Program-made: the position numbers and the translations under genes
Part shown: positions 1,384 through 17,696 of the stretch, in pieces
Numbering within the stretch: the stretch's first letter is position 1
How the letters are laid out: each line of letters opens with the position of its first letter
The notes under the pieces: model-generated
Databases searched by the model: none
What the model was told of the DNA's origin: nothing
What the model saw: only the letters and a program-made list of their open reading frames with translations
Assembly (NCBI GenBank): GCA_026770585.1
Contig: MU647476.1
Location: 61,231-82,098 of the forward strand
Length of the DNA: 20,868 bases
Reading direction: 5' to 3'
DNA from: Baffinella frigidus
Taxonomy: Eukaryota > Cryptophyceae > Cryptomonadales > Baffinellaceae

Positions 1384-1398
1384 AAGGGCCCTACTCAC

Positions 1399-1509
1399 GC
1401 CACCCGCGCGGGCGGCTCGTCGGCCGAGAAATCCCACGTGGGGTCCATGTAAAAGTAGTGGGTGCCTCCCGCGGGCGGGTCGAGGCAGTCTGGGCAGAGC
1501 TTGTCGCGC
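1399..1509 (-). CDS. Gene C, internal exon with a CPDC motif
   Basis: The minus strand shows acceptor ggcAG at 1511-1510, an exon of 111 nt, and donor GTGAGT from 1398. The reading frame gives RDKLCPDCLDPPAGGTHYFY then MDPTWDFSADEPPARV. The CxxC pair could bind metal or form a disulphide. One leading base completes a Gly codon with the two-base overhang of the exon at 1947-2146, and two trailing bases match the start of 122-179. The family is not recognised. The composition is unlike the surrounding repeats, which supports coding. Confidence 0.55.
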
Positions 1510-1713
1510 CTGCCGTACGGGGTTACGCTTCAGAGTAGGGTTTCGGGTGTCGGGTTTCGGGTTTGGGATTTACGGTTTAGGTGTTAGGGTTTAGGGTTTA
1601 GGGTTCAGAGTTCAGCGTTCTGGGTTCAGAGTGTACGGTTAAGGGTTCAGGGTTTTTGCTTCAGGGTTCAGGGTTCAGGGTTTTCGGTATAGGGTTTAGG
1701 GTTCAGGGTGTAC

Positions 1714-1762
1714 CCCCCCCGTCCCGAACGCACGACTTCTCGACGCGGGAGATCTCCCCAGT
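1714..1762 (-). repeat. 3'-edge copy of gene C exon 1947-2146
   Basis: On the minus strand it reads EISRVEKSC followed by a G-rich donor (gggggg|GTACAC). The parent exon reads EVSRVKQPC and ends gggg|GTCAAC. The match is about 40 bp long and keeps the frame and donor. It lies on the 3' side of the parent. Confidence 0.55.
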
Positions 1763-1946: not shown

Positions 1947-2146
1947 CCCCCCGTGCCGAACGCGGTGCACGGCTGCTTGACGCGGGAGACCTCCCCTTCG
2001 CCGTACGAGTAGAGCGGCTCGCCCATCAGGGGAACCTGCCACACCAGAGAGGAGACACCTTTGTCACTACCGACACGCCCGCCATGTCCGCACGGGGTTT
2101 TGCCGGGATTGCTTGGGGTGAAGGACACGAGGGTGGCCGTCCGGTC
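1947..2146 (-). CDS. Gene C, main exon
   Basis: On the minus strand an acceptor (gcgtAG at 2148-2147) precedes a 200-nt open exon ending at donor GTCAAC (from 1946). It encodes 66 residues plus two bases: DRTATLVSFTPSNPGKTPCG, then HGGRVGSDKGVSSLVWQVPL, then MGEPLYSYGEGEVSRVKQPC, then TAFGTG. It is Gly- and Ser-rich with two cysteines. The two trailing bases join in frame to 1399-1509, and the first base is phase 0 to the exon at 3261-3341. An alternative acceptor at 2037-2036 would shorten it by 111 nt in the same frame. The family is not recognised. HGGRVGS-type copies recur at 11267-11293 and 12323-12358. Confidence 0.55.
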
Positions 2147-2336
2147 CTACGCAGAGGACCTGTCGCCATAAAATACAATCAGATCAGGAAATCAAGAACA
2201 AACGTGCGAATAAAATGCATTGATGGCGAGCGCGTTTTTACTCACGCAGAGCTAGACTCTTGACCCCAGGGGTTTCTCTTTAGGTTCCAGGGTGCAGGGT
2301 GCAAGGTTCCGGGTTTAGGTAGAGGGTGGGGGGCAC
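2147..2336. other. Intron-like unique sequence
   Basis: AT-richer unique sequence with no recognised gene, followed by short GGGTT-type filler from about 2285. Confidence 0.5.
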
Positions 2337-2370
2337 CTCAGGACGGAGAGGCGGGCGAAGAGAATGAGAG
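2337..2370 (-). repeat. 3'-edge copy of exon 3261-3341, frameshifted
   Basis: The minus strand repeats CGCCTCTCCGTC and the GAG|GTGCC donor of the exon at 3261-3341. Four bases before the donor are missing, which breaks the reading frame. Confidence 0.55.
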
Positions 2371-2694
2371 AGAGCGAACCGAGACCCTCAGCCTCGAACA
2401 CTCAACCCCAAAAACTCAACCCCGAACACTCAATCAACCCCGCACCCTCAACCCCGAACCTTCAATCAACCCCGAACCTTAACCCCGAACCCTCAACCCC
2501 GAACCCTACACCGTCAAACCTAAACCCTCAAGAGTACCAGTCTGATTCGGTCTCACCAATTTGGTGAGGCGGGGCTATTTTCGCTCTAAAGTTGACGGGT
2601 TTGTACCACACAACCTGGAGGTCCACTTAAGAGTAGACAGTCAACCCAAGTGCGGCAGAGCTGGAGTTAAGGGTTTAGGGTTTAAGATGTTCGC
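2371..2694. repeat. CCCTCAACCC filler and a hairpin repeat
   Basis: Degenerate CAACCCCGAACCCT repeats run to about 2530. A hairpin, CTCACCA/TGGTGAG at 2552-2568, follows, then AAAGTTGACGGGTTTGTACC, which recurs at 16691-16710. The hairpin belongs to a dispersed family also seen at 15694 and 17484. Confidence 0.6.
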
Positions 2695-2850
2695 TTACCC
2701 TAACGAGCAACCCATAGAGGCAATGGAGTAAGGTGAGCGATATATACCCCCTGGAGACCGGTGTGTCCCCATGTCCCTGTTGGTCACGGGGTCATTCTGC
2801 ACGAATGGCTCAGCTGGCTCAGGCGAGATCATTATCTTCTCACAAGGCAC

Positions 2851-2889
2851 CTCGGGGTCGACGGAGAGGCGGGAGAAGAGCAGGATCAT
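2851..2889 (-). repeat. 3'-edge copy of exon 3261-3341
   Basis: On the minus strand this reads MILLFSRLSVDPE and then donor GTGCC, nearly identical to the end of the exon at 3261-3341 (LLLFSRLSVDPE|GTGCC). It is on the 3' side of the parent. It retains frame and donor, and has an ATG of its own, so use as an alternative exon cannot be excluded. Confidence 0.55.
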
Positions 2890-2894
2890 CCGAA

Positions 2895-3260: not shown

Positions 3261-3341
3261 CTCGGGGTCGACGGAGAGGCGGGAGAAGAGGAGGAGCGAG
3301 AGCATCTTAGAAGAACTTGTCCCAGAGCGACCACACGCCCT
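3261..3341 (-). CDS. Gene C, upstream exon (most 5' one supported)
   Basis: On the minus strand, acceptor cccggcAG (3343-3342) leads into 81 nt ending at donor GTGCCC. The phase-0 reading is RACGRSGTSSSKMLSL then LLFSRLSVDPE, and it joins in frame to the exon at 1947-2146. The run LSLLLFSRL is hydrophobic and could be part of a signal or membrane segment. Two 3'-edge copies with the same donor (2851-2889 and 2337-2370) show which boundary is real. Other frames of this exon are also open, so the exact protein is less sure than the boundary. Confidence 0.45.
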
Positions 3342-4326: not shown

Positions 4327-4638
4327 ATGGCTGACGAACAACCGTCGCGCAATTCCTCTGCGATGGGGAAGCCCCTGATGCCGCAGCGCATCGAGCCGCC
4401 CGAGTACATCGCGATCCAGGAGTCGCTCGCGCCCTTCTACGAGGACATTTCGGATGAACAGCGGGATCGCAGGAAGTTCGATGAGCAGCGCGTGGAGGAG
4501 GTCAACATCTACGCGGAGCGCATCGAGGAGAAGCTCAACGAGGAGATCCTGCAGCGGAAGGCGGCGGATGCGGCGCTCGACAAGCTCGCGGCGACGCGCC
4601 TTGACAACGTGCAGGAGGCGCTCGTTTTGCAGATGCAG
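4327..4638 (+). CDS. SF-assemblin-like exon 1
   Basis: ATG at 4327 is chosen because the codons after it (MADEQPSRNSSAMGKPLMPQ) begin a good protein. The in-frame ATG at 4228 would add 33 residues of repeat-like sequence. 104 codons end in ATGCAG|GTGCTG. The polar head (residues 1-40) is followed by heptad-rich helix from about residue 41. Phase 0. Confidence 0.78.
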
Positions 4639-7600
4639 GTGCTGCGCCAACCACGCCGTGACATGCACCAGCAGCCACAAAATCTGCCGCTGCCACGCGC
4701 TCCCCCCAGCTCAGCTCCCCGGGGGGTGGAGCCTCCCCAGCAGCGGCTCTGACCCCGTATCGGCGGGGACCTGCTGACCCAACCCCTCCCTCTCTGCAGA
4801 CCTCGTTTCGGGAGCTGAAAGCTGACATCGAGGCAGCCAAGGAGCGGTTGGGGGAGACGGAGGTGAAGCTGGAAGAGGTGCGCGCGCGTTCCCCGTACCA
4901 CTGTTGGCTGACTTGAGTTTGTCCTGGCGCGAACGAAGCATTCTTGGGTTGGTTTTCGCCATGTTCAAATATTGCTCGGTCGAGTCACCAGTCGTACGGG
5001 GGGGTACGGGGACTCTCTATCTCTGCGCGAGTCGATCTGGGCTCGCCATTAATGTAGTCTAGATGCTCGTTTTGTCTAAATGTACTCTATGGCGTGCCGA
5101 GATGGGACTAACGCAGCGCTAGACACTTACTTGAACTACTCGCTCCGACAGGGAGTCGGAGATTTTCCTTCAGAAACTAGGCTAACGGCCAATTCTTTAT
5201 GGATGGAGAGGATGTCAATTGAAATCTTCTGCTCGAATAACCCTCCTGGTTTGGGAGAGACCGATATCGACGCAACACGGGGTTCATTTAAAAGCCAGGA
5301 CCGGAAATCCGGTCTCAGCTTTTTCATTTTAAAAGTCCATTTCCCTTAGAATTCAGGTGAAAGTTTTTAAAATCCTTTAAAATTTAATCACGTCCTCGCT
5401 CGGGAGAGAAACGATGGGACTCAACAAAGAAACAGGCCGCGCTAGACCCTCAACCCTGAAACCCTGACACCCTGAAACCCTGAAACCCTGACACCCTGAA
5501 ACCCTGAAACCCTGAAACCCTAAACCCTTACCCCTGAAACCCTAAACCCTTACCCCTGAAACCCTACACACTAAACCCTGAAACACTAAACACTAAACCC
5601 TGAAACCCTCAACCCTAAACCCTGAAACCCTAAACCCTGAAACCTTGAAACCCTGAACCCTTTTCGCAGGTGCGGGAAAAGAACGAGCGGGAGCTGAAGG
5701 CGTGCAAACTGGAACTTGTCGAGCGCCTCGACCGCATCCAGGTCCACCAACCACCACAACCTTCACGGGCGGACCAACTCGACGATTTTCGACCATTTGT
5801 GCACGATTTTCGACCTTTTGTGCAAAGCACTTTTAAAACTCCCAAAACCTCACCTCTGTGGGTCTATGGGACTTTTAACATTGTATCGTTTTTGTCAGCG
5901 GGGTCGACTCGACCCCTCTGCAAGGGGGGGATGGCTCCAAGAATTCGTTGATTTGGTCTCACCGTGAGGGTCGGTTGAAGCAGTGACTGAACTCAATCTT
6001 CCCTGGATTTCCGGGGAAGATCGGTCACGTTACTGGCGCGAAAGGATCCGCAATTTGTACGGGAATCGTTTAGATGGGCCGCGTCACGAAGGCACCGGTG
6101 GCGTTGACGTGGCCAAGGCTGCGCTCTGCCTTTCTTTAAATGTCCGGTTTTACGCACGCGTTCAGTCTGTACCGCGAAAAACACGGCCGTGTCCACGACT
6201 GTACGAAGAAACTGACCGTATAGGGACGCGACCGGTTTAAACCAGGGCGTGCAAACTGGAACTTGACCAACAGGTCGCCTAGTTGAATGAGACTTGCATG
6301 CAAGGAATTTTAATGGGGAGGTTGACATTTAGTTAGGCCGCCTTATTGAACGAAAGTGCTGCTTAGTGGGACTGCGTGCAGTCGCAAGTTTAGGGTTCGG
6401 AACCCGAACCCCGAAACCACAATTGCAGTCTGGGATGCGCGTGGAATCGAAGAAGTGCACAGGAGGATTTTGAATGGCAATGTTTTTTTATTTAAAACAT
6501 TTCTGCTATGAAATTTCCTGCAGAGAACGATATTTACTAGTAATATCAAAGCAATGTGTAGTAATTTTTATTGAAATTCAATGTTTTACATCAAAACAGT
6601 TGATCTATGAGATTTTGGTGGGGGGGGCTCACATTTAATTAGGCCGCCTAATTGCATTAGAAATGAGGTGGCGGCGCTGATTGGTGGGCCTGAGGCTTTA
6701 ATTAATTTGTTCTCTGAAATAAAGGCTAACATTTGATCAGGGCGCCTATTCGGAACCCTGAAGCATAACCCGCGATTCCAGTCGGGGATGCGCGTGGAGT
6801 CCAAGACGCGCGTAGGAGGATTTTGATAGGGGGCTAACATTCAATTAGGCCGCCTAATTGAATTGAATTACGCCGCCTAATTGAATTGAATAACGCCGCC
6901 TAATTGAATTGAATTAGGCCCGCTAATTGAGTGAAGGCGCTGGTGGGCGGGGCTGCTTGAAGCAGAACCCACGATTGCAGTCGGGGATGCGCGTGGCATC
7001 GAAGATGCGGCCCGGAAATCTGGTCGAAATGTCGGTTCATAATATTTCTGGTGGGACTGAGTGCAGTCCAAGGCTAGGGTTCGGAACCCTGAACCCTTAC
7101 CCGCAATTGCAGTCGGGGATGCGTGTGGAGTCGAAGACGCGCATAGGAGGATTTTGATAAGAGGGCTAACATTTAATTAGGCGGCCTAATTAAAATCACT
7201 TAGGCGGCCTAATTAAATGTTAGCCACCCTCCCAAAATCCTCCTATGCACGTCTGTTTAGGGTTCGGAACCATGAACCCTTACCCGCAATTGCAGTCGGG
7301 GATGCTTGTGGAGTCAATTTGACCAGTTTGATTCGACCAGTTTGACCACGAATTTGACCGCTTTGGAGTTTGAACGGAAGACGCGGCGCCGTAACCTGGT
7401 CGAAATGCCGGTTAATTATTTCGGGTTCGGAACTCTGAAGCATAACTCACGATTGCAGTCGGGGATGCGCGTCGAGTCAATTTGACCAGTTCGATTTTGA
7501 CCAGTTTGGTTTTGACCAGTTTGACCCTGAACCACAACCCGCAATTGCAGTCGGGGATGCGTGTGGAGTCGAAGACGCGGCGCGACGAGGATGAGAAGAC

Positions 7601-9887
7601 CGCTAAGTTCATCAAGGTTGCTCGAAATCCTACACCCCACACCCTACACCCTACGCCCTGCACCCTGCACCCTACACCCGAAACCATAAACCGAAGATGA
7701 GAAGACCGCTAAGTTCATCAAGGTGCCCCCCCCCCAAACCCTAAACCCTAGGACCTAAACGCGACACCCGAAACCCGAAAACCGAGACCCGAAACCATGA
7801 ACCCGAAAACCGAAACCCGAAACCATGAACCCGAAAACCGAAAACCGAAGACCGGAAACCCCTGCACACGCATCCCCCCCCCCTGCATCCAGGATACCGG
7901 GAATTGGTACCCCCCCCCCCCAAATGCAAATCCGCCAAACTTAGACGAGGATGAGAAGACCGTTAAGTTCATCAAGGTGCTCCCCCACCAACCCTAAACC
8001 CTAGGACCCGCGAAACCCGCCAGCCGGGTTGACCGTGCTCGTGTGTAACCCCCGATATTTAAAGAAAGGCCGAGGGCAGCCTTGGCCACTTAAACGCGAC
8101 CGGTGCCTTCGGGAAGCAATGCATAAACACGTGTGGGCGGAGCTGGTGGTGCCCAAGGAGGCGGTCAACACTAAACCCTATCCACTCAACCAGAAACTAG
8201 AAACCAGAAACCAGAAACCAGGAACCAGAAACCCTGAACCCTACACCAGAAATCCTAAACCAGAAACCCTAAACCCATGTAGGCGGAGCTGGTGGTGCTC
8301 AAGGAGTTGACTGATCGTTTCAACACCAAAAGTGGCCGGATTTGTCCCGAAATCAACTTACGGAATCGCGCTGTTTTCGCGTGTAGGCGGAGCTGGTGGT
8401 GCTCAAGGAGGCGGTGAAGAAGGAGAAGCTGGTGCGTGAGGACGAGAACAAGCTCATCGTTCAGGTTGCGAGCCCCCCTATACCCTCAGGTTACGAATCT
8501 CACCTTTCTCCTTAGGTTGTGAGTCTCCCTCTACTTCGCAGGTTGCGAGCCTCACGTACTCGTTAGGTTGCGAGTCCCCGCGTACTCTCTAGGTTATGAG
8601 TCCCCGTACTTTCTTTAGGTTGCGGCAAACAGCCTCTCCCGGCGCCCCTGCTCAGACAGCCTCTGTGGGGGTGCATACATGGCAGCCATGTCGGTGCTGA
8701 CAACAGGATTTGAAAGAAAATGGATCCCTATGTGTTCATAGGAGTTGGAAGAAGATTAATTAGGGCCATCAGTAAATTTAATTGGGGCAGAATCCGGTTT
8801 GATAGGCATGGTTGCAGGGCAAGCTGGTACCGACAACGTTCGCTCTCTGCAGAGGTGAGAGGTGCTGGCGGGCATGGTGGAACTGACAGACGTCTCGCTG
8901 TGACTGCAGAGGTTAGAGGTGCTGGAGCACGAGGAGATCAAGGCGGGCGAGCGCGCCCAGCTCAAGATCTTCGAACAGGTCCTACCCCCCCCCCCCCATG
9001 TCGTTCGCGTCCTTCCTCTTCTGATTCTGGTTCTGATTCTCCCATATTGCTCTATAGCCATTGCTCTCGATCTTGAGCTGAGCGCGCCCAGCTCAAGATC
9101 TTCGAACAGGTTATCTCCTCCTTGGCTCACCTCGCGTCCTTCTTCTTCTTCTTATTCTTTTGTATTTAGCCATGGTCATCAGCGCGCCCAGATCAAGATC
9201 TGTGAGCAGGGTGTCTCCACCTTGGATGAGCGCGCATCCGTGTTCTTCTTCTTCTTTCTCTCGTGACGATCGCATCCTTCCTGTTTTTTTCTCGCTTCTT
9301 CGTATTCTTCTGATTTGCTCTCGAGCCTAGGAATGATGGATCGCATCCCAGATGCTCGATCGCATCCCAGATGCTGTAGCTCTTGAGAGAGAGGCCCAGC
9401 TCAAGATCTTCGAGTAGGTCCTGCCCCCCTTGAATATCGCATCCTTCTTTTCTTTCTTTCTCTCTCGTCTTCTGCTTGTTCTTCTTCTTCTTCTTCTTGT
9501 TCTGATTTGCTCTCGAGTCTAGAAATGATCGATCTCAGCCCAGCTCAAGACCTTCGAGCAGGTCCACCCCCCCCCCTTGACGATCTCAAACCCCAAACCC
9601 CAAACGCGCAGTTGTGGGTGTTGCCTCGCGCTGCCCGCGCCTAAACTATGAACCCTGCCCCCCAAAAAAAAACGTGAGCAGTTGCAGAAGTTGCGGCGGG
9701 TGCTGCAGCTCTCGTGTGTCCCTGCCGCGTTGTTTTTTTCGCGCGCAGAGACCCTTAAACGCCTAAACCCTAAACCCCAACCCCCAACCTCACACAGTTG
9801 CGGGAGTTGCGGCGCGTGTTGCAGCTGGAGAAGGAGGCGCGGCTCTCGGAGGAGGACAAGGTCAAGATCGTCTTGGAGGAGTACCAG
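4327..9887 (+). CDS. SF-assemblin / beta-giardin-like coiled-coil protein (gene span)
   Basis: Seven exons can be read: 4327-4638, 4800-4877, 5670-5741, 7551-7616, 8387-8464, 8910-8978 and 9798-9887. Every exon length is a multiple of three and every join is phase 0. They total 255 codons and the 3' end is missing into the N gap. The sum is charged, rich in Glu, Lys, Leu and Arg, and almost free of proline after residue 40. The order matches SF-assemblins: a short polar head, then the coiled-coil start (YEDISDEQRDRRKFDEQR, then EEKLNEEILQRKAADAAL), with an EDEK..KFIK or EEDK..IVLEEY type motif near the end. Known members run about 270-340 aa and build striated flagellar-root fibres. An extra exon between 5741 and 7551 cannot be excluded. 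Family assignment is by remembered pattern, not a search. Confidence 0.68.
4639..4799 (+). other. Intron 1
   Basis: 161 nt from GTGCTG to CCTCTCTGCAG, with a clear pyrimidine tract. It is the only compact intron of the gene and holds no repeats. Confidence 0.7.
4800..4877 (+). CDS. SF-assemblin-like exon 2
   Basis: 26 codons, TSFRELKADIEAAKERLGET then EVKLEE, all coiled-coil compatible, between TCTGCAG and GTGCGCGC. Phase 0 at both ends. Confidence 0.75.
4878..5669 (+). other. Intron 2 with CCCTGAAACCC array
   Basis: 792 nt. The first 560 bases are unique, with no gene recognised; they contain the near-palindrome GACCGGAAATCCGGTC at 5299-5314, repeated at 17226-17241. From about 5440 to 5660 the intron is an array of CCCTGAAACCCTAAACCC units, ending in the acceptor TTTTCGCAG. 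Confidence 0.65.
5670..5741 (+). CDS. SF-assemblin-like exon 3
   Basis: 24 codons, VREKNERELKACKLELVERL then DRIQ, with acceptor TTTTCGCAG and donor GTCCAC. Phase 0. A partial copy lies downstream at 6247-6273. Confidence 0.75.
5742..6246 (+). other. Intron 3, first part
   Basis: Unique sequence with no gene recognised. Several unrelated open frames exist but none resembles a protein. Confidence 0.5.
6247..6273 (+). repeat. 3'-edge copy of exon 3
   Basis: GCGTGCAAACTGGAACTTG is identical to 19 bases of exon 3. It is followed by ACCAACAG|GTCGCC, where exon 3 ends GCATCCAG|GTCCACC. So a fragment of the exon with its donor sits about 505 bp downstream of the parent. Confidence 0.65.
6320..7260. 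repeat. Repeat family B: AATTAGGCCGCCTAATT palindromes
   Basis: The palindromic motif TAATTAGGC(C)GCCTAATTA occurs singly near 6330 and 6640, four times in tandem at 6838-6925, and as an inverted pair at 7164-7225. The pair has perfect 19-bp arms (GGCTAACATTTAATTAGGC) and wider similarity, reaching about 7134-7257. A diverged copy lies at 15950-15985. This looks like a foldback element interleaved with the exon-edge copies. Confidence 0.65.
6429..7500 (+). repeat. Six 5'-edge copies of the exon at 7551
   Basis: The junction attgCAG|TCGGGGATGCGCGTGGAGTC recurs with exon starts at 6429, 6782, 6981, 7113, 7296 and 7459 before the full exon at 7551. Each copy carries the acceptor side and about 20-30 bases of exon (SGMRVESK), and none reaches the exon end. 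Most are preceded by GGTTCGGAACCC-type filler, so a longer unit was duplicated. Some keep pure codon matches and others change one or two residues. Confidence 0.8.
7316..7530 (+). repeat. TTTGACCAGTTTGA minisatellite
   Basis: Degenerate TTTGACCAGTTTGATT units in two clusters (7316-7370 and 7475-7528), flanking the last two exon-edge copies. Confidence 0.65.
7551..7616 (+). CDS. SF-assemblin-like exon 4
   Basis: 22 codons, SGMRVESKTRRDEDEKTAKF then IK, between attgCAG and GTTGCT. Phase 0. It resembles the conserved DEKF..F motif of the family. This is the only one of nine related copies that has both exon edges. That, with frame, is why it is chosen. Confidence 0.62.
7625..7860. repeat. CCCTACACC and CCCGAAAACC filler
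   Basis: Short telomere-like repeats between exon-edge copies; no gene seen. Confidence 0.6.
7697..7722 (+). repeat. 3'-edge copy 1 of exon 4
   Basis: ATGAGAAGACCGCTAAGTTC then ATCAAG|GTGCCC, identical to the exon end with its donor, and starting directly after an AG. Confidence 0.8.
7945..7976 (+). repeat. 3'-edge copy 2 of exon 4
   Basis: ACGAGGATGAGAAGACCGTT then AAGTTCATCAAG|GTGCTC. One substitution (Ala to Val) separates it from exon 4. It too begins right after an AG (ttAG) and retains the donor, so it could be spliced as a small exon. Confidence 0.8.
8137..8306 (+). repeat. Two 5'-edge copies of exon 5
   Basis: GCGGAGCTGGTGGTGCCCAA (8137) and GCGGAGCTGGTGGTGCTCAA (8283) repeat the start of the exon at 8387. 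The 8283 copy keeps the gtAG acceptor. CCAGAAACC-type filler lies between them. Confidence 0.8.
8387..8464 (+). CDS. SF-assemblin-like exon 5
   Basis: 26 codons, AELVVLKEAVKKEKLVREDE then NKLIVQ, between gtgtAG and GTTGCG. Phase 0. Strong heptad pattern. Confidence 0.72.
8463..8620 (+). repeat. Seven AG|GT junctions at 25-26 bp spacing
   Basis: After the true exon 5 donor (CAG|GTTGCGAG), a unit like AGGTTGCGAGTCCCCGTACT is repeated. The AG of each AG|GT falls at 8463, 8488, 8514, 8540, 8565, 8591 and 8617. Each repeat joins a pyrimidine-rich acceptor-like YAG directly to a donor-like GTTGCG or GTTATG, in effect a zero-length exon. The first is the real exon end. Confidence 0.85.
8621..8850 (+). 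other. Intron 5, unique part
   Basis: No repeats or gene recognised apart from the pyrimidine tract CTCTCTGCAG at its end. Confidence 0.5.
8851..8868 (+). repeat. 5'-edge copy of exon 6
   Basis: CTGCAG|AGGTGAGAGGTGCTGG repeats the start of exon 6 (CTGCAG|AGGTTAGAGGTGCTGG) with a TGA stop, about 60 bp upstream of it. Confidence 0.75.
8910..8978 (+). CDS. SF-assemblin-like exon 6
   Basis: 23 codons, RLEVLEHEEIKAGERAQLKI then FEQ, between gactgcAG and GTCCTA. Phase 0. Coiled-coil composition. Confidence 0.75.
9068..9103 (+). repeat. Hairpin made from an inverted exon-end copy
   Basis: CGATCTTGAGCTG sits just before the exon-end copy CAGCTCAAGATC, giving a 12-bp perfect stem around AGCGCGCC. 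Part of the exon is thus present in both orientations side by side. Confidence 0.7.
9082..9561 (+). repeat. Four 3'-edge copies of exon 6
   Basis: Copies of GCCCAGCTCAAGATCTTCGA then ACAG|GT end at 9109, 9209, 9417 and 9561. The copy ending 9209 has a shifted donor (CAGG|GTGTCT), the 9417 copy ends in TAG, and the 9561 copy changes Ile to Thr. The spacers are also related (CTTG..., CGC(G/A)TCCTTC, TTCTTCTTC, TTGCTCTCGAG), so units of about 100-210 bp were duplicated, each with the exon end and intron start. Confidence 0.85.
9682..9714 (+). repeat. 5'-edge copy of exon 7
   Basis: gagCAG|TTGCAGAAGTTGCGGCGG then GTGCTGCAGCTC reads LQKLRRVLQL, against LRELRRVLQL at 9798. Two of the codon changes (cgc/cgg, ttg/ctg) are synonymous. 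Confidence 0.8.
9798..9887 (+). CDS. SF-assemblin-like exon 7
   Basis: 30 codons, LRELRRVLQLEKEARLSEED then KVKIVLEEYQ, between cacacAG and GTTCGT. Phase 0. The EEDK.KIVLEEY part resembles the conserved C-terminal DEKF..FVLEE motif of SF-assemblins. Confidence 0.75.
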
Positions 9888-9899
9888 GTTCGTCCACAC

Positions 9900-10227
9900 C
9901 CCCCCCACACACACACTCGCTCTCTTCCCCCTACTCTCTCTCCCTCTCTCCTTCTCTGGCTCTCTCTCTCTGGCGCGCGCTCTCTCTCCCTCTGTCTCCC
10001 TCTCTCTCCCTCTCTCCCCCTCTCTCTCTCTCCCTCTCTCTCCCTCTCTCTCCATGTCTCTCTATCGATAGATAGAGAGACATCCTCCAAGAGCTCTTGG
10101 AGGAGGACAAGATCGTGCTCGAGGAATACCAGGTCCGTCCTCCCCACCCCCCACCACTCCCCCCTACTCTCTCTCCCTCTCGCTCTTTCTCTGTCTCTCC
10201 TTCCCTCCCTCTCTCTCTCTCTATCTG

Positions 10228-10287
<60 letters not shown>
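9900..10287 (+). repeat. CT-rich tract and (CT)n microsatellite
   Basis: Pyrimidine-rich CTCTCTCCCTCTCTCC repeats with a pure (CT)n run from about 10229 that enters the gap. The long Ser/Leu or Arg/Glu frames across it are repeat artefacts. Confidence 0.9.
10053..10132 (+). repeat. Hairpins and 3'-edge copy of exon 7
   Basis: TGTCTCTCTAT pairs with ATAGAGAGACA, and TCCTCCAAGAGCTCTTGGAG-GA (10083-10104) is a perfect 22-bp palindrome. From the palindrome starts an exon-end copy, LEEDKIVLEEYQ|GTCCGT, ending at 10132. Against exon 7 it lacks two codons in frame, and its remaining differences (gtc/gtg, ttg/ctc, gag/gaa) are all synonymous. Confidence 0.78.
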
Positions 10288-10841
10288 NNNNNNNNNNNNN
10301 NNNNNNNNNNNNNNNNNNNNNNNNNNNNNNNNNNNNNNNNNNNNNNNNNNNNNNNNNNNNNNNNNNNNNNNNNNNNNNNNNNNNNNNNNNNNNNNNNNNN
10401 NNNNNNNNNNNNNNNNNNNNNNNNNNNNNNNNNNNNNNNNNNNNNNNNNNNNNNNNNNNNNNNNNNNNNNNNNNNNNNNNNNNNNNNNNNNNNNNNNNNN
10501 NNNNNNNNNNNNNNNNNNNNNNNNNNNNNNNNNNNNNNNNNNNNNNNNNNNNNNNNNNNNNNNNNNNNNNNNNNNNNNNNNNNNNNNNNNNNNNNNNNNN
10601 NNNNNNNNNNNNNNNNNNNNNNNNNNNNNNNNNNNNNNNNNNNNNNNNNNNNNNNNNNNNNNNNNNNNNNNNNNNNNNNNNNNNNNNNNNNNNNNNNNNN
10701 NNNNNNNNNNNNNNNNNNNNNNNNNNNNNNNNNNNNNNNNNNNNNNNNNNNNNNNNNNNNNNNNNNNNNNNNNNNNNNNNNNNNNNNNNNNNNNNNNNNN
10801 NNNNNNNNNNNNNNNNNNNNNNNNNNNNNNNNNNNNNNNNN
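10288..10841. other. Assembly gap (N)
   Basis: 554 undetermined bases following the (CT)n run. The end of the SF-assemblin-like gene is probably here or beyond. Confidence 1.
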
Positions 10842-10892
10842 TCGCGCCCGAGCGATTCACACACGATCGTCAACAAGAGCGACTACGAGTGA
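10842..10892 (+). CDS. Possible 3' end of the SF-assemblin-like gene
   Basis: Immediately after the gap a frame reads SRPSDSHTIVNKSDYE and TGA. Because the gap breaks the sequence, the link to exon 7 is guesswork. The motif CGACTACGAGTG also occurs at 119-130 and 290-301. Confidence 0.2.
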   Translation, partial: SRPSDSHTIVNKSDYE

Positions 10893-11047
10893 TCTCCTCT
10901 CCGCTTGCCACCGCCGGCGGTCTTCCAAGGATAACCCTGCCAAAGCCGGCGAACAGCAGCGGGGTCCGGACTGCAAGGTCGAGCGATCTCCGGAGGGCCA
11001 GGCGGGCGCGCTTTTGTTCGCGTTCATCGCGTTCTTTGCGCTCCGCG
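10893..11047. other. Ambiguous coding-like sequence beside a MITE
   Basis: The minus strand reads YAERKERDEREQKRARLALR then RSLDLAV, highly charged and helix-like, ending exactly where the MITE at 11048 begins. No clear splice sites on both sides were found. Confidence 0.25.
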
Positions 11048-11168
11048 TACAGGGGTGCCTCGCTCACAAGAAACCGCCACCCCCCTAGGACCATCTTAGG
11101 GCCCTAGGCATGGTCCTACTGTAGGGTCCTGGGCGGGGGCGGTTTCTTATCAGCGAGGTACCCCTGTA
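11048..11168. mobile_element. MITE family A copy (full length)
   Basis: 121 bp, TA-bounded, both inverted ends and the TAGGGCCCTAGG core present. Confidence 0.88.
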
Positions 11169-11251
11169 TCGCTGGTGGGGTGCCGCGTAGGGGCCCCGCG
11201 GGGGGGCTACGCGGGGCTGGAGGGGTTATTAGGGCTAGTGGATTAACCCCG

Positions 11252-11268
11252 CCCGGTACCCCTGTACA
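11252..11268. mobile_element. MITE family A right-end remnant
   Basis: CCGGTACCCCTGTA only, directly followed by the exon-like copy at 11267. Confidence 0.5.
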
Positions 11269-11293
11269 TGGTGGTCGTGTTGGTAGTAATAAG
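11267..11293 (+). repeat. Diverged copy of gene C exon segment (HGGRVGSNK)
   Basis: Plus-strand codons read HGGRVGSNK, against HGGRVGSDK in the gene C exon at 1947-2146. Of nine codons one changes the residue (gac/aat) and four differ synonymously (ggc/ggt, ggg/ggt, gtc/gtt, aaa/aag). This is the mark of a once-coding paralogous fragment. Confidence 0.6.
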
Positions 11294-11495
11294 GCCTCCC
11301 AAGTTGGCCTCCTGTGCGGGTCGACAGCTGGGGCCCCACGTGCGGGTATCTTGGCTCTCAGGGCACTTGGGGACGCAAGGTTATGAGGACGCCAAAGTAG
11401 ATTCACTTAGGCCTCCGAAGTAGATTCACTTAAGAAACACAGAGCCGTGGCGCCCCGCGGGTTCAGGGTTTAGGGTTTAGGGTTTAGGGTGTAAC
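11294..11495. other. Sequence without a recognised gene
   Basis: GC-rich sequence, then a short GGGTTTAGGG run at 11466-11491 next to a donor on the minus strand. Confidence 0.45.
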
Positions 11496-11593
11496 CTGCA
11501 GGTCCAATAATGTCGCAAATCGTTGGTGGTGTAGCGGCCCTGCGTGTCTAATACAGTTTCTGTTCCAGACGCGTTGAGCGCGGCCGTTATTAT
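11496..11593 (-). CDS. Minus-strand exon candidate interrupted by a MITE
   Basis: Minus-strand frame TAALNASGTETVLDTQGRYT then TNDLRHYWTC ends at donor CTGCAG|GTTACACC, next to telomere-like intron filler. Its 5' side runs straight into the short MITE at 11594-11646. The frame stays open through the whole MITE into 17 bp beyond. The residue pattern looks like real protein, but the family is not recognised. Confidence 0.45.
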
Positions 11594-11646
11594 TACAGGG
11601 GTGTCTCGCTCAGGGGGCACTTTCTTATGAGCGAGGTACCCCTGTA
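11594..11646. mobile_element. MITE family A, internally deleted (53 bp)
   Basis: Only the two ends remain (TACAGGGGTGTCTCGCTCA and TTTCTTATGAGCGAGGTACC-CCTGTA), bounded by TA. It lies in frame with the exon candidate at 11496-11593. Confidence 0.8.
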
Positions 11647-11663
11647 CCACCACGGCCGCCATG

Positions 11664-11766
11664 TACAGGGTTACCTCGCTCATAGGGAGGCGCACCCACC
11701 TAAGAACCCACGGTAGGCCTGTCTAGGGCCCTGTGGCCGTCCTGGGGGGGGGGGGCTCCCTATGAG
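11664..11766. mobile_element. MITE family A, CATAGGGAG subfamily, right end cut
   Basis: The left end has CATAGGGAG where other copies have CATAAGAAA, and the right arm (CTCCCTATGAG) matches it. The right end stops at 11766. Paired change of both arms argues for a distinct subfamily. Confidence 0.7.
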
Positions 11767-11769
11767 CTC

Positions 11770-11810
11770 TACAGGGGTACCTCGCTCATAGGGAGCCACC
11801 CCCCCCTGTA
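11770..11810. mobile_element. MITE family A remnant (41 bp)
   Basis: TACAGGGGTACCTCGCTCAT, then AGGGAGCC, poly-C and CTGTA. Same subfamily as 11664-11766. Confidence 0.6.
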
Positions 11811-11833
11811 AAGCGAGGCGACAGGCTGTACAC

Positions 11834-12232
11834 GTACCAGACGCGATGGTTCGGTGAGGCTTCATTTGACGTGCAAGAGCTCAAGGGTGTCGAGAGAGAG
11901 AAAGGTGCGTGCGTTACGGATCGAAATCAGCAGACTGTACACGTGACAGATGGTTTGGTGTGTCTTTACTTGGCATGCAAGAGAGCTAGCGGGAGCCGAG
12001 AGACTGTACAGGGGTACCTCGCTCATAAGAAACTGCCCCCCCCCCCTGGGAAAACCACAGGGTCCTAGGCAAAGGCTTGCTGTAGGGTCCTCTGTAGGGT
12101 CCTAGGGGGGCGCAGTTTCTTACGAACGAGGTTACTAGACGTGCGAGAGAGCTAGAGGGAGCCGAGAGGTAACAGACGCGGTGGTTTGGTGTGTCTTGAC
12201 TTCACGAGCAGGAGAGCTAGAGGGAGCCGAGA
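11834..12232. repeat. Four ~60-bp direct repeats (GAGAGCTAGAGGGAGCCGAG)
   Basis: Units containing GATGGTTTGGTGTGTCTT and GCAAGAGAGCTAG.GGGAGCCG start near 11834, 11945, 12137 and 12170. The MITE at 12007-12134 sits between the second and third. Confidence 0.65.
12007..12134. mobile_element. MITE family A copy, right end eroded
   Basis: Perfect left end; the right arm ends TTTCTTACGAACGAGGTTA without CCCCTGTA. Confidence 0.75.
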
Positions 12233-12261
12233 GGTTCCCGCGTAGCCAGCTCGGCCGCGAC

Positions 12262-12286
12262 CTGCGACTTGAAGATGATGTCGTTC
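12262..12286 (-). CDS. Possible 25-nt mini-exon
   Basis: The minus strand reads ggtggcAG, then one base and NDIIFKSQ, then donor GTCGCGG. The frame stays open on both sides. Weak evidence; could be chance. Confidence 0.22.
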
Positions 12287-12322
12287 CTGCCACCCGAGAG
12301 ACCTTTGTGAGTTCCAACACGA

Positions 12323-12358
12323 CGAGAGACCTGTGTTACCGACACGGCTGCCATATCC
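12323..12358 (-). repeat. Diverged copy of gene C exon segment (GYGSRVGN)
   Basis: Minus-strand codons read GYGSRVGNTGLS, against GHGGRVGSDKGVS in gene C. Position and orientation are unrelated to gene C, so it is a dispersed fragment. Confidence 0.4.
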
Positions 12359-12440
12359 CTCAAGTGGCCAGGGGGTCGAATTCGACCCCCGAGAGGTCCT
12401 AGGCAGGTCCTAGGGCCCTACAGTAGGGCGTATGAGCCTA
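12351..12440. repeat. Dispersed ~90-bp repeat (second copy at 20065-20150)
   Basis: ATATCCCTCAAGTGG, then a CGAATTCG or AAATTT palindrome, then GGTCCTAGGCAGGTCCTAGG and CCCTAC.GTAGGGCGTATG. The 20 kb copy shows the same order. Confidence 0.7.
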
Positions 12441-12569
12441 CTAATACCAAACCGTGTTTGGTAACACGGTCCCCACACCCAGAACGATGTGAGCCTGCAA
12501 AGAGAGAGACTTTGATGAATAGCGTGTTGGTAGGTACACGGGGCTATCCCAAACAAAGAGTAATCCCTG

Positions 12570-12692
12570 TACAGGGGTACCTCGCTCACAAGAAAACGCC
12601 CCGCCCCTCTAGGACCACCGTAGGGCCCTAGGAATCGGCCTACTGTAGGGTCTTAGGGGGGGGCAGCTTCTTATGAGCGAGGTAACCCTGTA
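12570..12692. mobile_element. MITE family A copy (full length)
   Basis: 123 bp, TA-bounded, both ends and full core. Confidence 0.87.
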
Positions 12693-13065
12693 CCTACATC
12701 GCCAGGAGGATCCAGACCGGTAGTCCACTCGAGAATGCTAGAAGATCCTATCTATATGTGGGGTTGTAAATATTTGTACCAGGATAAGGTGTTCCAACCT
12801 CGCACCTGGTATATGTTTTACTAGCGTGACCAATAATCACCGAAAGTTACTACACAAATGCCCACTTTTAAAAGGAATGGGTTTTAAATAGGCCCCTCTA
12901 GCATTCTCGTGTGGGTGGTGCAGCTGGTGTCCTTTTCGGATCCGGGTACATTTTGGAGAGAAAAAAAGACCTCTAACTGAAATTCCGACAAATGACCTGG
13001 CGTGGACTACTAGTAAGACCCAATTATGTAGTAACTGGATCGCATTTTCGGATCGCATCAATCCT
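12693..13065. other. Intergenic or intronic sequence without a recognised gene
   Basis: Unique, AT-richer sequence. A 122-codon minus-strand frame (13205-12837) covers much of it but overlaps the repeat at 13066-13186 and has no recognisable motif. Confidence 0.4.
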
Positions 13066-13186
13066 CCCCACCCCCAACAGCGGATTTCGAAGGGATTACC
13101 GAATAACCCATACGCGATAAGGCATAGGACCCTGCGGTCGGTAATCCGTAGGGACATGGGGGGGTTCCCACGGATAAGGTAACGGA
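13066..13186 (-). repeat. Repeat family C (inverse copy at 15460-15580)
   Basis: In reverse orientation it begins CCGTTACCTTATCCGTGGGA, then poly-C, ATGTCCCTACGGATT and GGGTTATTC, ending GTCCGCTGT-like. The copy at 15460-15580 has the same order over about 120 bp. Confidence 0.7.
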
Positions 13187-13224
13187 AAGTCGGTGGATTG
13201 TCCACCGAAAATCCCTTCGCCGTG

Positions 13225-13277
13225 GTTTCGTGGTTTCGTGGTTCAGGGTTTAGGGTTGAGAGTTTAGGGTTGAGGGT
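13225..13277. repeat. Short GGGTTTAGGGTTGAG filler
   Basis: Telomere-like repeats; no gene. Confidence 0.6.
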
Positions 13278-13377
13278 TTAGGATGCAGACTTGCAGTGGT
13301 GGAGGGTGTGTTGTCGCAGCATGCCCGCGCCCTGTCCCGGCACGCTCGACACCCCCGCCTCCCGCAGGTTCCCCATC
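13278..13377 (-). CDS. Minus-strand terminal exon candidate
   Basis: After acceptor atggcAG (13379-13378), one base and then MGNLREAGVSSVPGQGAGML, RQHTLHHCKSAS and TAA. A copy of its start is at 13611-13640, where Leu changes ctg to tta (two silent changes) and Gly ggg to ggt. This favours the minus-strand frame over the plus one. The function is unknown. Confidence 0.4.
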
Positions 13378-13462
13378 CTGCCATTCGGTCAGCGTTTCAG
13401 CCATTTGGCATTTGGTTGGCGTTTTAGGTCGCGGGGTTTACTCCGGCGGAGCTTAGGGCTAC

Positions 13463-13584
13463 TACAAGAATACCTCGCTCATAAGAAAGTGCCTCCCCCT
13501 AGGACCCTACAGTAGGCCTATGCCTAGGGCCCTTCGGCGGTTCTAGGGGGGGGGGCGCTTTCTTATGAGCGAGGTACCGCTGTA
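13463..13584. mobile_element. MITE family A copy (full length)
   Basis: 122 bp with slightly changed tips (TACAAGAATACCTCGCTCAT and GAGGTACCGCTGTA). Confidence 0.85.
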
Positions 13585-13610
13585 GCTCTGCCTAGGCAAT
13601 CCGGGCTCCT

Positions 13611-13640
13611 CACACACCCGCCTCCCATAAGATGCTCATT
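13611..13640 (-). repeat. 5'-edge copy of exon 13278-13377
   Basis: Minus strand MSILWEAGV and TGA, against MGNLREAGVS. It is on the 5' side of the parent and matches the parent's start, as the polarity rule predicts. Confidence 0.5.
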
Positions 13641-13717
13641 CTACTCACGGTGTAACGTTGAGGGTGTAGGGGTTGGGGGCTACTGCCACGGGTTTCAGGG
13701 GTAAAAGGTCTCTTTAT

Positions 13718-13827
13718 GCGAAGTGTTGGTCTCTCAAAGTTCTCTTTCTGCAAAGTGCCGGTATTTGAAAGAGGTCTCTCGCTATCTCTATCGCTCTCTC
13801 TCTCTGCGCAGTGTTGGTATTTGAAAA

Positions 13828-13879
<52 letters not shown>

Positions 13880-13900
13880 ACTGTTGGTATTTGAAAAAGG
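13718..13900 (+). repeat. Four copies of a ~18-nt exon-like unit in CT repeats
   Basis: TGTTGGTATTTGAAAAAG|GT at 13812 and 13882, with diverged copies at 13724 and 13756, each preceded by a CT tract and CTGCRMAR and followed by GTCTCTC. One looks like a complete acceptor-exon-donor (CTGCGCAG|...|GTCTCT). A (CT)n microsatellite fills the spacers. Confidence 0.6.
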
Positions 13901-13919
13901 TCTTTCTCGGCAGGCCACG

Positions 13920-14060
13920 CTGCAAGGGTTCAAGGTTTCGGGGTTGGGGGTTGGGGTTAAAGGTTTAGGGTATAGGGTTTAGGGTTTAGAGTCTAGGGTC
14001 TAGGGTTTAGGGTCTAGGCTTTAGGGTCTAGGGTTTAGGGTTTGGTCTTTAGTGTTTAGG
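13920..14060. repeat. GGGTTTAGGGTCTAGGG array
   Basis: Degenerate TTTAGGG repeats in intron-like position; no gene. Confidence 0.8.
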
Positions 14061-14067
14061 GTTTAGA

Positions 14068-14222
14068 TACCGGATCATGGGCCACTTGGAAACGCTAAAC
14101 GCTACGCCCTAAACTCTAAACCCTGCACCCTAAACCCTTAACCCTAAATTAGGGGGTACTGGATCATGGGCCACTTGGAGGGGGGAAGCCCATTGACCGC
14201 CATGTTCTGGCAGAACATCCCT
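14068..14222 (+). repeat. Two 5'-edge copies of exon 14325-14409
   Basis: The far copy (14068) carries only YRIMGHLE. The near copy (14157-14222) carries YWIMGHLEGGSPLTAMFWQN and IP, with one in-frame codon inserted (ttc) and silent changes in Glu, Gly and Pro codons. Both carry the exon start. Confidence 0.8.
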
Positions 14223-14312
14223 TAAAATACATTTCAATGCGCTTTGTACCGGGGCGTTTGTACGGAGTCCCGCTCTAAATGTATTTAAGTCCCGCTCTAA
14301 ATGTATTTAAAT
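14222..14312. repeat. Repeat family D (inverse copy at 14700-14795)
   Basis: GCGCTTTGTACCGGGGCGTT, TGTACGGAGTCCCGCTCTAA and ATGTATTTAA recur in reverse orientation at 14700-14795. The exon at 14325 lies between the two. Confidence 0.7.
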
Positions 14313-14324
14313 TAAAGGGTGGAG

Positions 14325-14409
14325 GTACCGGATCATGGGCCACTTGGAAGACGGCAGCCCCTTGACCGCCATGTGGCAGAACATCCCCGGCATCACGTTC
14401 CTACCGCGG
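14325..14409 (+). CDS. Gene E exon, unknown family
   Basis: One base after ggAG, the frame reads YRIMGHLEDGSPLTAMWQNI then PGITFLPR and ends at donor GTGTGG. It is the only one of seven related copies that has both exon edges. Silent differences among copies at third codon positions, and an in-frame codon insertion in one, identify this strand and frame. The family is not recognised. Other exons of this gene were not found with confidence, so the gene is partial. Confidence 0.6.
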
Positions 14410-14610
14410 GTGTGGGGTTTAGGGTTAAGGGTTAAGGGTTGAGGAAGGTTGAGGGTTTGGTGTTGAGGAGGGTTGATGCTTTAGGGTTTAGGAGGGTTTA
14501 GGGTTTAGGGTTTAGGAGGGTTTAGGGTCTAGGGTTGAGGGTTTAGGAGGCTTGAGGGTTTAGGATTTAGGGTCCAGGATTTAGGGTTCAGGGTTTAGGG
14601 CTCAGGGATT
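14410..14610. repeat. GGGTTTAGGAGGGTTGAGG array
   Basis: Degenerate telomere-like intron filler; no gene. Confidence 0.8.
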
Positions 14611-14614
14611 AGAG

Positions 14615-14671
14615 GGCAGCCCCTTGACCGCCATGTGGCAGAACATCCCCGGCATCACGTTCCTACCGCGG
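14615..14671 (+). repeat. 3'-edge copy 1 of gene E exon
   Basis: GSPLTAMWQNIPGITFLPR with the same donor GTGTGG; identical to the parent from GGCAGCCCC onward. Confidence 0.85.
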
Positions 14672-14699
14672 GTGTGGAGTTGTGAGGTTGAGTGCTGAG

Positions 14700-14880
14700 C
14701 TTAAATACATTTAAAGCGGGACCCCGTACAAACGCTCCCCGTTAGATACATTTAGAGCCGGACGCCGTACAAACGCACCAGTACAAAGCGCATCGGGGTT
14801 AGGGTTTAGGGGTTAGGGGTGAGGGTTCAGGATTTAGGATTTGGGGTTGAGGGTTCAGGGAGTAGGGTCCAGGGATTAGA
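14700..14880. repeat. Repeat family D, inverted copy, then GGGTTTAGG filler
   Basis: Up to about 14795 the sequence is the reverse complement of the family D copy at 14222-14312. Telomere-like repeats follow. Confidence 0.65.
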
Positions 14881-14881
14881 G

Positions 14882-15130
14882 GGCAGGCTCTTGACCGCCA
14901 TGTGGCAGAAAATCCCCGGCATCACGTTCCTGGAAAGAGCGTTGAGGGTTTGGGGTTGAGGGTTGAGGGTTGAGGGCTGATGGTTGAGGGCTGATGGTTG
15001 AGGGTTTAGGGTTTAGGGTTTAGGGTTCGGGGTTTAGGGTTTGGGGTTTGGGGTTAACGGTATCACATTCCTTGAAATAGGGTTGAGTGCTCAGGGTTTG
15101 GGGTTTAGGGTGTCACATTCCTTGGAATTG
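14882..15130 (+). repeat. Three shorter 3'-edge copies of gene E exon
   Basis: 14882-14935 reads GRLLTAMWQKIPGITFLERA. 15059-15076 reads GITFLE and 15109-15130 reads GVTFLGI. Silent codon changes (ggc/ggt, acg/aca, ctg/ctt) predominate. Length falls with distance from the parent exon. GGGTTGAGGG filler separates the copies. Confidence 0.75.
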
Positions 15131-15459
15131 GGTGTAGGGTTCAGGGTCTAGGGTTGAGGGTGCAGGGTTCAGGGTTTAGGGCTCAGGGTTCAGGGCAGCA
15201 CAGTCGAAACTACGACGCCAGATTGCTCGAGGAAAACCGACGCCAGATCAACGCCAGATCTGGCGTCGTTGACTTAAGTATTCATGGGATTTCCCCTGAA
15301 AGATGTCAAAAGTGGATATTTCGAGCCCTCTGGCGTGGTAGATTGATGCCGAAAGCATGATGCGGAAATACTTCACAGTCAACCATCAAGACTATTGACA
15401 ATCGTCTGGCACCACACAGCGGGCTACGCAGGGAAAACATCTTCAGAATCAACTCATTT
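15131..15459. other. Unique sequence with a small palindrome
   Basis: Telomere-like filler to 15195, then unique sequence. AACGACGCCAGAT-type arms and the perfect palindrome ACGCCAGATCTGGCGT lie at 15251-15266. No gene recognised. Confidence 0.45.
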
Positions 15460-15580
15460 CCGGTTACCTTATCCGTAGGACCCCCCCCCCTATGTCCCTA
15501 CGGATTGCCTACCGTAGGATCGTAGGTCCTATCGTTTAAGGGTTATTCCAAATCCCTGGAAGTCCGCTGTGTGGGTGCGG
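15460..15580 (+). repeat. Repeat family C (see 13066-13186)
   Basis: CGGTTACCTTATCCGTAGGA, poly-C, TATGTCCCTACGGATT, CCTACCGTAGGA and GGGTTATTCCAAATCCC, the same order as the reverse copy at 13066-13186. Confidence 0.7.
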
Positions 15581-15693
15581 CAGGCAGAGCCAGCGAATTA
15601 TAGCTCTGCCTCTCTCGGGTTGACCAACTATTCTCAAGTTGACATGCTGTGTTTGCGGTAAAAATCCGGCAACTTTGGAGCGGGGAAGAGCCC

Positions 15694-15716
15694 GGGCTCA
15701 CCACATTGGTGAGCCC
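15694..15716. repeat. Hairpin repeat GGGCTCACCA/TGGTGAGCCC
   Basis: Perfect 10-bp arms around CAT, followed by ACTGAAGCAGAGCCAGG. Same family as 17484-17506 and 2552-2568. Confidence 0.75.
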
Positions 15717-15754
15717 ACATAGACTGAAGCAGAGCCAGGGGGGACTTTGATGCC

Positions 15755-15838: not shown

Positions 15839-15893
15839 CAGTCTAGTGGAAAGCAACGGTTGGTCCCGGCGATTTCAACTTCAGCTCGGAAGA
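15838..15893 (-). repeat. 3'-edge copy of gene D last exon
   Basis: Minus strand RAEVEIAGTNRCFPLD and TGA, against NGAVKIAGTKRCGFTLE and TGA at 16258-16392. Val, Ala and Arg codons differ silently. Confidence 0.6.
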
Positions 15894-16028
15894 TAACTGA
15901 ATCAGTTCCTTTTCCATAGGAGGTTGAATAGGAGAATTTAGTTAGGGCATAGCAAACTTAATTAGGCGTCCTGATTTAATGAGAAACGGTACTTAGGGGA
16001 CTGATTCAGTTATCTTTCGAGATGAAAC
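15874..16028. mobile_element. Foldback element related to family B
   Basis: TTCAACTTCAGCTCGGAAGA and TAACTGAATCAGT are matched, with a few mismatches, in reverse at 15996-16028. Inside lies TTAATTAGGCGTCCTGATTT, a diverged family B core. Confidence 0.6.
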
Positions 16029-16108
16029 TTGAGCATAGTCTGACCGGCAAGTCAACCCGAGTGAGGCAGCGCTAGCGGTTCTCTCCCCCATGAACCAACA
16101 TGAAACAC

Positions 16109-16127
16109 ACACCGTTTGGTCCCCGCG
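16109..16127 (-). repeat. 3'-edge fragment of gene D last exon
   Basis: Minus strand AGTKRC (gcg ggg acc aaa cgg tgt), one silent change from the parent, located on its 3' side. Confidence 0.5.
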
Positions 16128-16257
16128 CTCATCTCACGCATCTCCAGGCTTGAGAGTAAAGAATAATTATCCACGCCAGGTCATAAGTTCCTTTTTCACA
16201 CACACTCGTTCGCGCTAAAAGTGTTTAGATGGCTTATCGCGGTACAGGTTTTTAAAT

Positions 16258-16392
16258 TCATTCAAGAGTGAAACCGCACCGTTTGGTCCCCGCGATTTTG
16301 ACGGCGCCGTTGTGGAGGTTGTGCTCCGGGACGTAGCAGCACGCGTAGTTGGGCGGCGAGACCCCCGCCCCCACCGCCGCCCCCACCAGCAT
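16258..16392 (-). CDS. Gene D, probable last exon
   Basis: Acceptor ggccgcAG (16394-16393) is followed by MLVGAAVGAGVSPPNYACCY, VPEHNLHNGAVKIAGTKRCG, FTLE and TGA. It has 44 codons plus stop and is phase 0 to the exon at 17697-17831. Features are a Gly/Ala/Val-rich start, a Cys-Cys pair and no low complexity. The family is not recognised. Two exon-end copies (16109 and 15838) lie on the 3' side and keep IAGT.RC in frame. Confidence 0.5.
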   Translation of the reverse strand: MLVGAAVGAGVSPPNYACCYVPEHNLHNGAVKIAGTKRCGFTLE

Positions 16393-17677: not shown

Positions 17678-17696
17678 GTGGCTGGTGGGGGGGCAC

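Follow-up and report, generated by a model that had tools for sequence, protein, structure and literature searches.

Partial exon copies in introns of the cryptophyte Baffinella frigidus follow a polarity rule consistent with repeated boundary-crossing tandem duplication

The window analysed here is a 20,868-nucleotide stretch of nuclear DNA from the cold-water cryptophyte alga Baffinella frigidus. Sixteen exons of three genes were placed in it using transcript-like or homologous proteins and the splice consensus, meaning that exon positions were fixed independently of any copies: by P0002 for gene A, P0033 for gene B, and P0029-P0032 for gene C. The joined plus-strand exons, used as a query, matched P0002 with 100% identity over the whole query, and also a hypothetical protein of the same alga, P0004. 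As P0002 is present in three contigs, the longest of only 1361 bases, it is probably transcript-like. Gene A, on the plus strand, belongs to the SF-assemblin/beta-giardin family (Pfam PF06705, E 4.4e-13), and tblastn found no relatives of P0002 among viral contigs. No match to the P0002 peptide VALQQGLK turned up in the window; a gap of 554 Ns (10288-10841), preceded by a CT run, is followed directly by IVNKSDYE and a stop codon. Gene B (minus strand, 3305-1395) matches P0033, an 82-residue transcript protein, while gene C, also on the minus strand (about 18340-12215), has relatives that include sequences named for Rhodomonas, and by eye its product looks like a membrane protein. No Rfam family matched the window at gathering scores.

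Exons of gene A, B and C and their partial copies (positions in the window; start and end refer to the exon edge retained)
Feature	Position	Strand	Remarks
A1, coding part	4327..4638	+	P0002 100%; no copies found
A2	4800..4878	+	no direct copies found
A3	5670..5741	+	
A3 copy, 3' side	6244..6279	+	exon bases 28-63 of 72, exon-internal; 28/36 identical
A4 start copies (6), with acceptor, 5' side	6396..7508	+	exon-start bases 6429, 6782, 6981, 7113, 7296, 7459
A4, live	7551..7616	+	
A4 end copies (2), with donor, 3' side	7692..8008	+	7692-7724, 7945-7982
A5 start copies (2), 5' side	8124..8306	+	8128-8168, 8274-8306
A5, live	8387..8464	+	
A5 donor-region tandem array	8457..8605	+	periods 26 and 51; almost wholly intronic; not counted as edge copies
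A6 start copy, 5' side	8817..8870	+	nearly contiguous tandem, distance 57, gap 1
A6, live	8910..8978	+	
A6 end copies (4), 3' side	9080..9573	+	9080-9111, 9181-9210, 9387-9427, 9530-9570
A7 start copies (2), 5' side	9605..9710	+	9605-9630 (weak), 9679-9710
A7, live	9798..9887	+	
A7 end copy, 3' side	10088..10220	+	includes about 84 intronic nt
B1, live, coding part	3261..3305	-	P0033
B1 end copies (2), 3' side	2327..2882	-	2846-2882, 2327-2364
B2, live	1947..2035	-	
B2 end copy, 3' side	1705..1731	-	
B3, last exon	1395..1509	-	no significant copies; end not used as splice edge
C3, live	16280..16392	-	P0029-P0032
C3 end copies (2), 3' side	15849..16138	-	16102-16138, 15849-15879
C4, live	14329..14400	-	
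C4 start copies, 5' side	14611..15162	-	14631-14672, 14898-14931
C4, two very short copies, 5' side	near 15078, 15130	-	by eye, below threshold
C4 end copies (2), 3' side	14061..14221	-	14152-14221, 14061-14094
C5, live	13291..13377	-	
C5 start copy, 5' side	13612-13644	-	weak, 24/33

Each exon was first aligned to its own flanks, and each splice edge was then queried against both flanks using a junction of 10 intron and 32 exon bases, with matches accepted if they exceeded the best of 100 dinucleotide shuffles per flank. This used 27 splice edges; the starts of A1, B1 and C1, and the ends of B3 and C6, were omitted as non-splice or undefined, and exon A8 because the N gap cuts it. Exon starts had 14 matches in 5' flanks (at 6 of 13 edges) and one in a 3' flank, while exon ends had 15 in 3' flanks (at 7 of 14 edges) and none in 5' flanks. 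The polarity proposed in the first-pass annotation, with acceptor-side copies 5' of an exon and donor-side copies 3' of it, is therefore real: 13 of the 27 edges have matches on the predicted side, which accounts for 29 of all 30 matches (Fisher 2e-7). The sole wrong-side match, at C4 (14200-14221), covers exon bases 14-32 only, and is therefore exon-internal. The two rows at the end of A7 (10088-10103 and 10104-10142) probably represent a single split copy, and by our own grouping there were perhaps around 16 independent events rather than 29, as copies within one array share breakpoints.

The extent of the phenomenon was overstated by the claim that nearly every exon is affected, as edge copies accompany 9 of the 16 exons, C5 only weakly. 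Of the 11 exons originally listed, nine have edge copies; the A3 copy contains neither edge, contradicting the statement that every 3'-side copy holds the exon end, and nothing significant was found at 1399. The exon listed at 14325 on the plus strand is actually C4 on the minus strand, which leaves the strand-symmetric rule intact, and the exon edges given as 16258 and 13278 are really at 16280 and 13291. Neither exon-against-flank alignment nor junction queries detected copies at A1, A2, C1 or C2. Two 3'-side matches of C6 were excluded from the counts because the end of this exon is undefined, and a 5'-side match of A7 is exon-internal (bases 37-82) and overlaps an A6 copy. Low-scoring inverted matches were found at A2, A6 and A7 when exons were aligned to their own flanks, with two rows in the reversed control. 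The possible exception noted at 293 could not be assigned to any exon; separately, 117-152 and 292-325 are near-identical stretches (gactacgagtgcgggagcgg) among heptamer repeats, which are perhaps exon copies of a gene at the left end of the window.

The copies are also ordered within introns. In the four introns containing both kinds (A4-A5, A6-A7, C3-C4 and C4-C5), all donor copies precede all acceptor copies without interleaving, for which the chance is 1 in 1620 by our own arithmetic on the junction-query rows only; the same order applies to five introns if the internal A3 copy and the two C4 copies found by eye are added (chance 1 in about 28,000). No second complete exon with both splice sites was found: exon ends had no match in the 5' flanks, and exon starts none in the 3' flanks other than the exon-internal one. 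The nearest to complete is 14161-14221, which lacks bases 1-13 of C4. Two 5' alignments of C4 nominally span exon bases 1-65 and 1-71 of 72, but the good part of each stops near base 50, the identity beyond being repeat-like, and there is no exon-end match there. In searches of the whole window, high-identity exon copies adjoined their own exon in direct orientation, and the remaining matches were weak similarities, some of them inverted (B1, A2, A3, C1). A single whole-genome DNA search, with the A4 exon against 382,457,362 bases, recovered its own place alone, missing the known partial A4 copies too.

This polarity is not a property of the surrounding sequence. Seventy pseudo-exons of 72 bases each were set in the same introns, with a threshold of the best of 40 shuffles plus 8, and yielded 10 start matches in 5' and 19 in 3' flanks, and 25 end matches on each side, without polarity (P 0.24). 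The ratio of right-side to wrong-side matches was 29:1 for real exons versus 35:44 for pseudo-exons (P 1.5e-7), hence the rule belongs to exons, rather than to repeats in this stretch. Under the same threshold, 38 of 120 unmasked random intron windows had direct and 41 had inverted matches, and therefore the introns are full of local repeats in both orientations; the corresponding counts for the 27 exon-edge windows were 13 and 2. Direct copies are thus not clearly enriched at exon edges over random intron windows, but the copies that edges do have are nearly all direct.

Other loci lean in the same direction, although they are few. A search of the alga's own genome with the Pfam chaperonin profile PF00118 gave 11 exon matches with flanks, providing 11 start and 9 end edges. 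Exon starts had six matches in 5' flanks, at five edges, and none in 3' flanks; exon ends had one match in 5' and two in 3' flanks. This sample alone gives P 0.083, and P 6e-9 when pooled with the window. Some rows were close to threshold, namely the start at locus L028 (78 against 75), a match at L031 that falls short of the exon start (59 against 57), and the contrary row (52 against 51). Three further loci, L037-L039, were picked by eye from kinesin and dynein tables as neighbouring matches overlapping in the profile; having been selected because they hold copies, they are an illustration, not a test. Each has a downstream copy without the exon start but with the exon end. At two loci the homology crosses the exon boundary, with 67/77 exon and 95/113 intron identities at L037, and 87/107 and 65/81 at L038; the exon part at L039 has 68/72. 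A further match, to the region of the exon start, lies upstream at L037.

The fate of the copies was assessed through their codons, by comparing 37 listed copies (30 from the window and 7 from chaperonin loci) with their exons across 358 codons. The 44 synonymous and 61 other differences correspond to a synonymous share of 0.42, close to the 0.38 expected for a free copy beside a constrained exon (2x253/(2x253+821); P 0.24), and distinct from expectations if both were neutral (0.236; P 2.6e-5) or both constrained (assumed 0.8; P 1e-17). Change at non-synonymous sites is about 7% (61/821, own arithmetic). Hence copies on average fit unconstrained fossils beside a constrained exon. However, the L026 copy and the first L035 copy have synonymous differences only (5:0 and 4:0), and the copies at L037-L039, having been picked with a profile HMM, have 26 synonymous and 15 other differences, a lean that is inseparable from the way they were picked. 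A minority of copies may therefore be under constraint.

These patterns are best explained by tandem duplication across exon-intron boundaries, combined with selective loss of second intact exons, an account we consider probable. Short stretches of about 50-500 bp, judging by the spacing of copies, would be repeatedly duplicated head to tail, by unequal exchange or replication slippage. A unit spanning an exon start would place an intron-acceptor-exon start before the intact exon, leaving an acceptor-side fossil 5' of it, and one spanning an exon end would leave a donor-side fossil 3' of it. Units that break the exon, or that make a second complete exon the spliceosome would include, would be purged by selection. 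The innermost edges would stay in use while fossils decay as intron, such that introns would grow inward from both ends. The first-pass annotation supposed the outermost intact edges to be those still used, but it is the innermost, contiguous with the intact exon, that are joined in P0002 and P0033.

Both the mechanism of duplication and the purging are inferred. Tandem duplication and local copy-paste were simulated around one 72-base exon, over 600 runs of four events, with unit lengths of our choosing. Tandem duplication with rejection of any second intact exon, or broken exon, placed 868 copies on the right side and 24 on the wrong side. When second exons were tolerated the counts were 1159:493, or about 30% on the wrong side (493/1652), and two versions of local copy-paste gave 572:425 and 856:766 (43-47%). 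Only the first of these four models yields so strict a rule. Furthermore, if unit length equals spacing, a mean fraction of 0.37 of duplications would include the whole exon (29 spacings), whereas no complete copy was found. The original proposal that tandem duplication gives exactly this rule is therefore correct as to side, but tandem duplication alone is insufficient, as neither whole-exon copies nor around 30% wrong-side copies are seen, and a loss of second exons is needed. The simplest reason for such loss would be that these exons would be spliced in.

The structure of the duplicated units agrees with this account in part. Copies lie in direct orientation beside their source exon, and at L037 and L038 the unit holds both exon and intron sequence, although the intron part is very short in several pairs. 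Units are near-contiguous 5' of A6 and, by reading, at L037; in most other pairs the blocks are separated by sequence that does not align. Homologous blocks frequently fail to fill the distance between copies, and in about half of exon-copy pairs (A4 3', A6 3', B1, A5, A7 5' and C4 3') intron homology beside the live exon continues for just 2-8 nt; 3 of 29 adjacent pairs have almost none (scores 0, 5 and 8). Under the strict scoring, for which 95% of random anchors scored at most 21 and the 99% point was 211, six of the 29 chosen pairs exceeded 211; a loose X-drop extension was dropped, as it over-extended into low-complexity intron. As blocks are shorter than the spacing, the account also requires subsequent insertions, indels or exchange limited to exons, with either fast intron turnover by indels and insertions, or exon-limited exchange that refreshes copies. 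One suspected case of exon-limited gene conversion, the copy at 9080-9109, which is identical to the live exon (30/30) and matches copy 9181 on its intron side, offers a single informative site.

Such short blocks would also be produced by break-repair templated insertion, similar to that of polymerase theta, in which nearby sequence is copied and pasted into introns; many blocks are only 30-80 nt long and are not contiguous with the next unit. Yet copy-paste produced wrong-side copies in simulations at a frequency far above the 1 in 30 found, would allow inverted matches, which occur at 2 of 27 exon-edge windows and in a few low-scoring rows, and does not fit the long homology, including intron, at L037 and L038, making it very improbable. 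We consider it likewise very improbable that selection instead maintains the copies as alternative or regulatory splice sites. Many do retain AG or GT, and some (L026, the first at L035, and L039) differ from their exon only synonymously. However, substitutions as a whole are distributed as in unconstrained copies, the 20 of 29 keeping AG or GT (with some anchors 1-2 bases off) do not exceed the approximately 86% that, by our own arithmetic, 7% drift per base would leave, and the transcript-like P0002 and P0033 use inner edges only. The suggestion that copying supplies alternative splice sites is therefore unproven. An assembly or haplotype artefact could be suspected in a contig carrying an N gap after a CT run, but it is hard to reconcile with the private substitutions in the copies and their presence on several other contigs, and is the least credible of these explanations.

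Boundary-crossing duplication itself has a precedent in the potato RdRp gene, in which an intron was gained by tandem duplication across an intron-exon boundary (Ma et al. 2016, PMC4974935). There too the 3' side of an intron and the 5' side of an exon were duplicated head to tail, and the upstream exon fragment became intronic, but a single event generated a new intron with a cryptic donor (PMC4974935). By contrast, in several Baffinella genes existing introns appear to have grown, repeatedly and from either edge. In the AGGT model of Rogers (1989), as cited in PMC4974935, exonic tandem duplication creates a new intron. Intronic sequence there likewise comes from tandem duplication, but the unit is exonic and the intron new, whereas no new intron is shown in Baffinella. 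Where exons are duplicated to become mutually exclusive, complete duplicated exons persist; tandem exon duplication is common to both, but no complete copy was found in the Baffinella genes. Introner elements are dispersed genome-wide and make whole introns. They are likewise repeated sequences carrying splice signals, whereas the Baffinella copies appear to be local, are partial, and contain one edge each. The terms Baffinella, crypto-, Guillardia and tandem do not occur in the main text of a paper on introner elements (PMC9860276). Nor did the open-access titles and abstract openings listed on this subject describe exon-edge fossils as a widespread property of introns, and none of the open-access papers searched combined cryptophyte, introns and Baffinella. 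Hence the geometry was already known from the potato gene, and its repeated occurrence in Baffinella is the new part.

Intron growth is usually ascribed to transposons and indels. The side on which the decaying copies lie points to exon-edge duplication as one way in which Baffinella frigidus introns grow. Measured by hand in seven introns that contain copies, the distance between an exon edge and its farthest copy amounts to 56-96% of intron length. The source of much intron DNA would then be directly readable, with each fossil datable, and the rule would reflect tandem duplication and selection acting together, its strict polarity serving as a straightforward indicator of selection against second exons. 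According to the genome paper, the assembly is 534.5 Mb, with 41.1% repeats, and 6.1 times the size of that of Guillardia theta (87.2 Mb), and the word intron does not occur in its main text (PMC9756366). Extended to the whole genome, a table of copies would allow the reason for intron expansion to be tested in a cryptophyte whose assembly is this large. A bolder reading, which seems unlikely, is that exon edges are growth zones at which live edges exchange with their own fossils, by unequal exchange or exon-limited conversion, such that introns lengthen at both ends, fossils are refreshed, a minority are constrained as alternative edges, and the process helped make the genome six times that of Guillardia.

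Several minor features accompany the copies. By reading, the P0004 model continues past the A5 donor and ends inside the donor array (8465-8515); this ending is likely a mis-annotation caused by the copies. At locus L002 (7199-7793, minus strand), the peptide ETSPVAKGVMAAMIDAATAFSTAE occurs at least two times within 600 bases of the same contig, perhaps representing another exon with copies. A perfect 86-base tandem duplication lies at 16870-17037, with an apparent inverted copy directly before it, by eye. Short palindromic elements with GGTACCTCGCTCATAAGAAA ends (813-1377, 11054-13578, 15761-15780 and 20649-20776) have 19 matches at up to three mismatches, against a mean of 0 expected, and look like a MITE family. 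Telomere-like degenerate heptamers (CCCNAAA) were counted in eight gene stretches (4327-10287, 1395-3305, 12215-18340, and five merged from L026-L036), and their C-rich strand lies on the coding strand 193 times versus 30, with the bias running in the same direction in each stretch; those at L037-L039 are too few to compare (2:0, 0:0 and 0:1). Outside the three genes, where no coding strand is known, the C-rich strand of the heptamers is the plus strand (37:0, 2:0 and 31:1).
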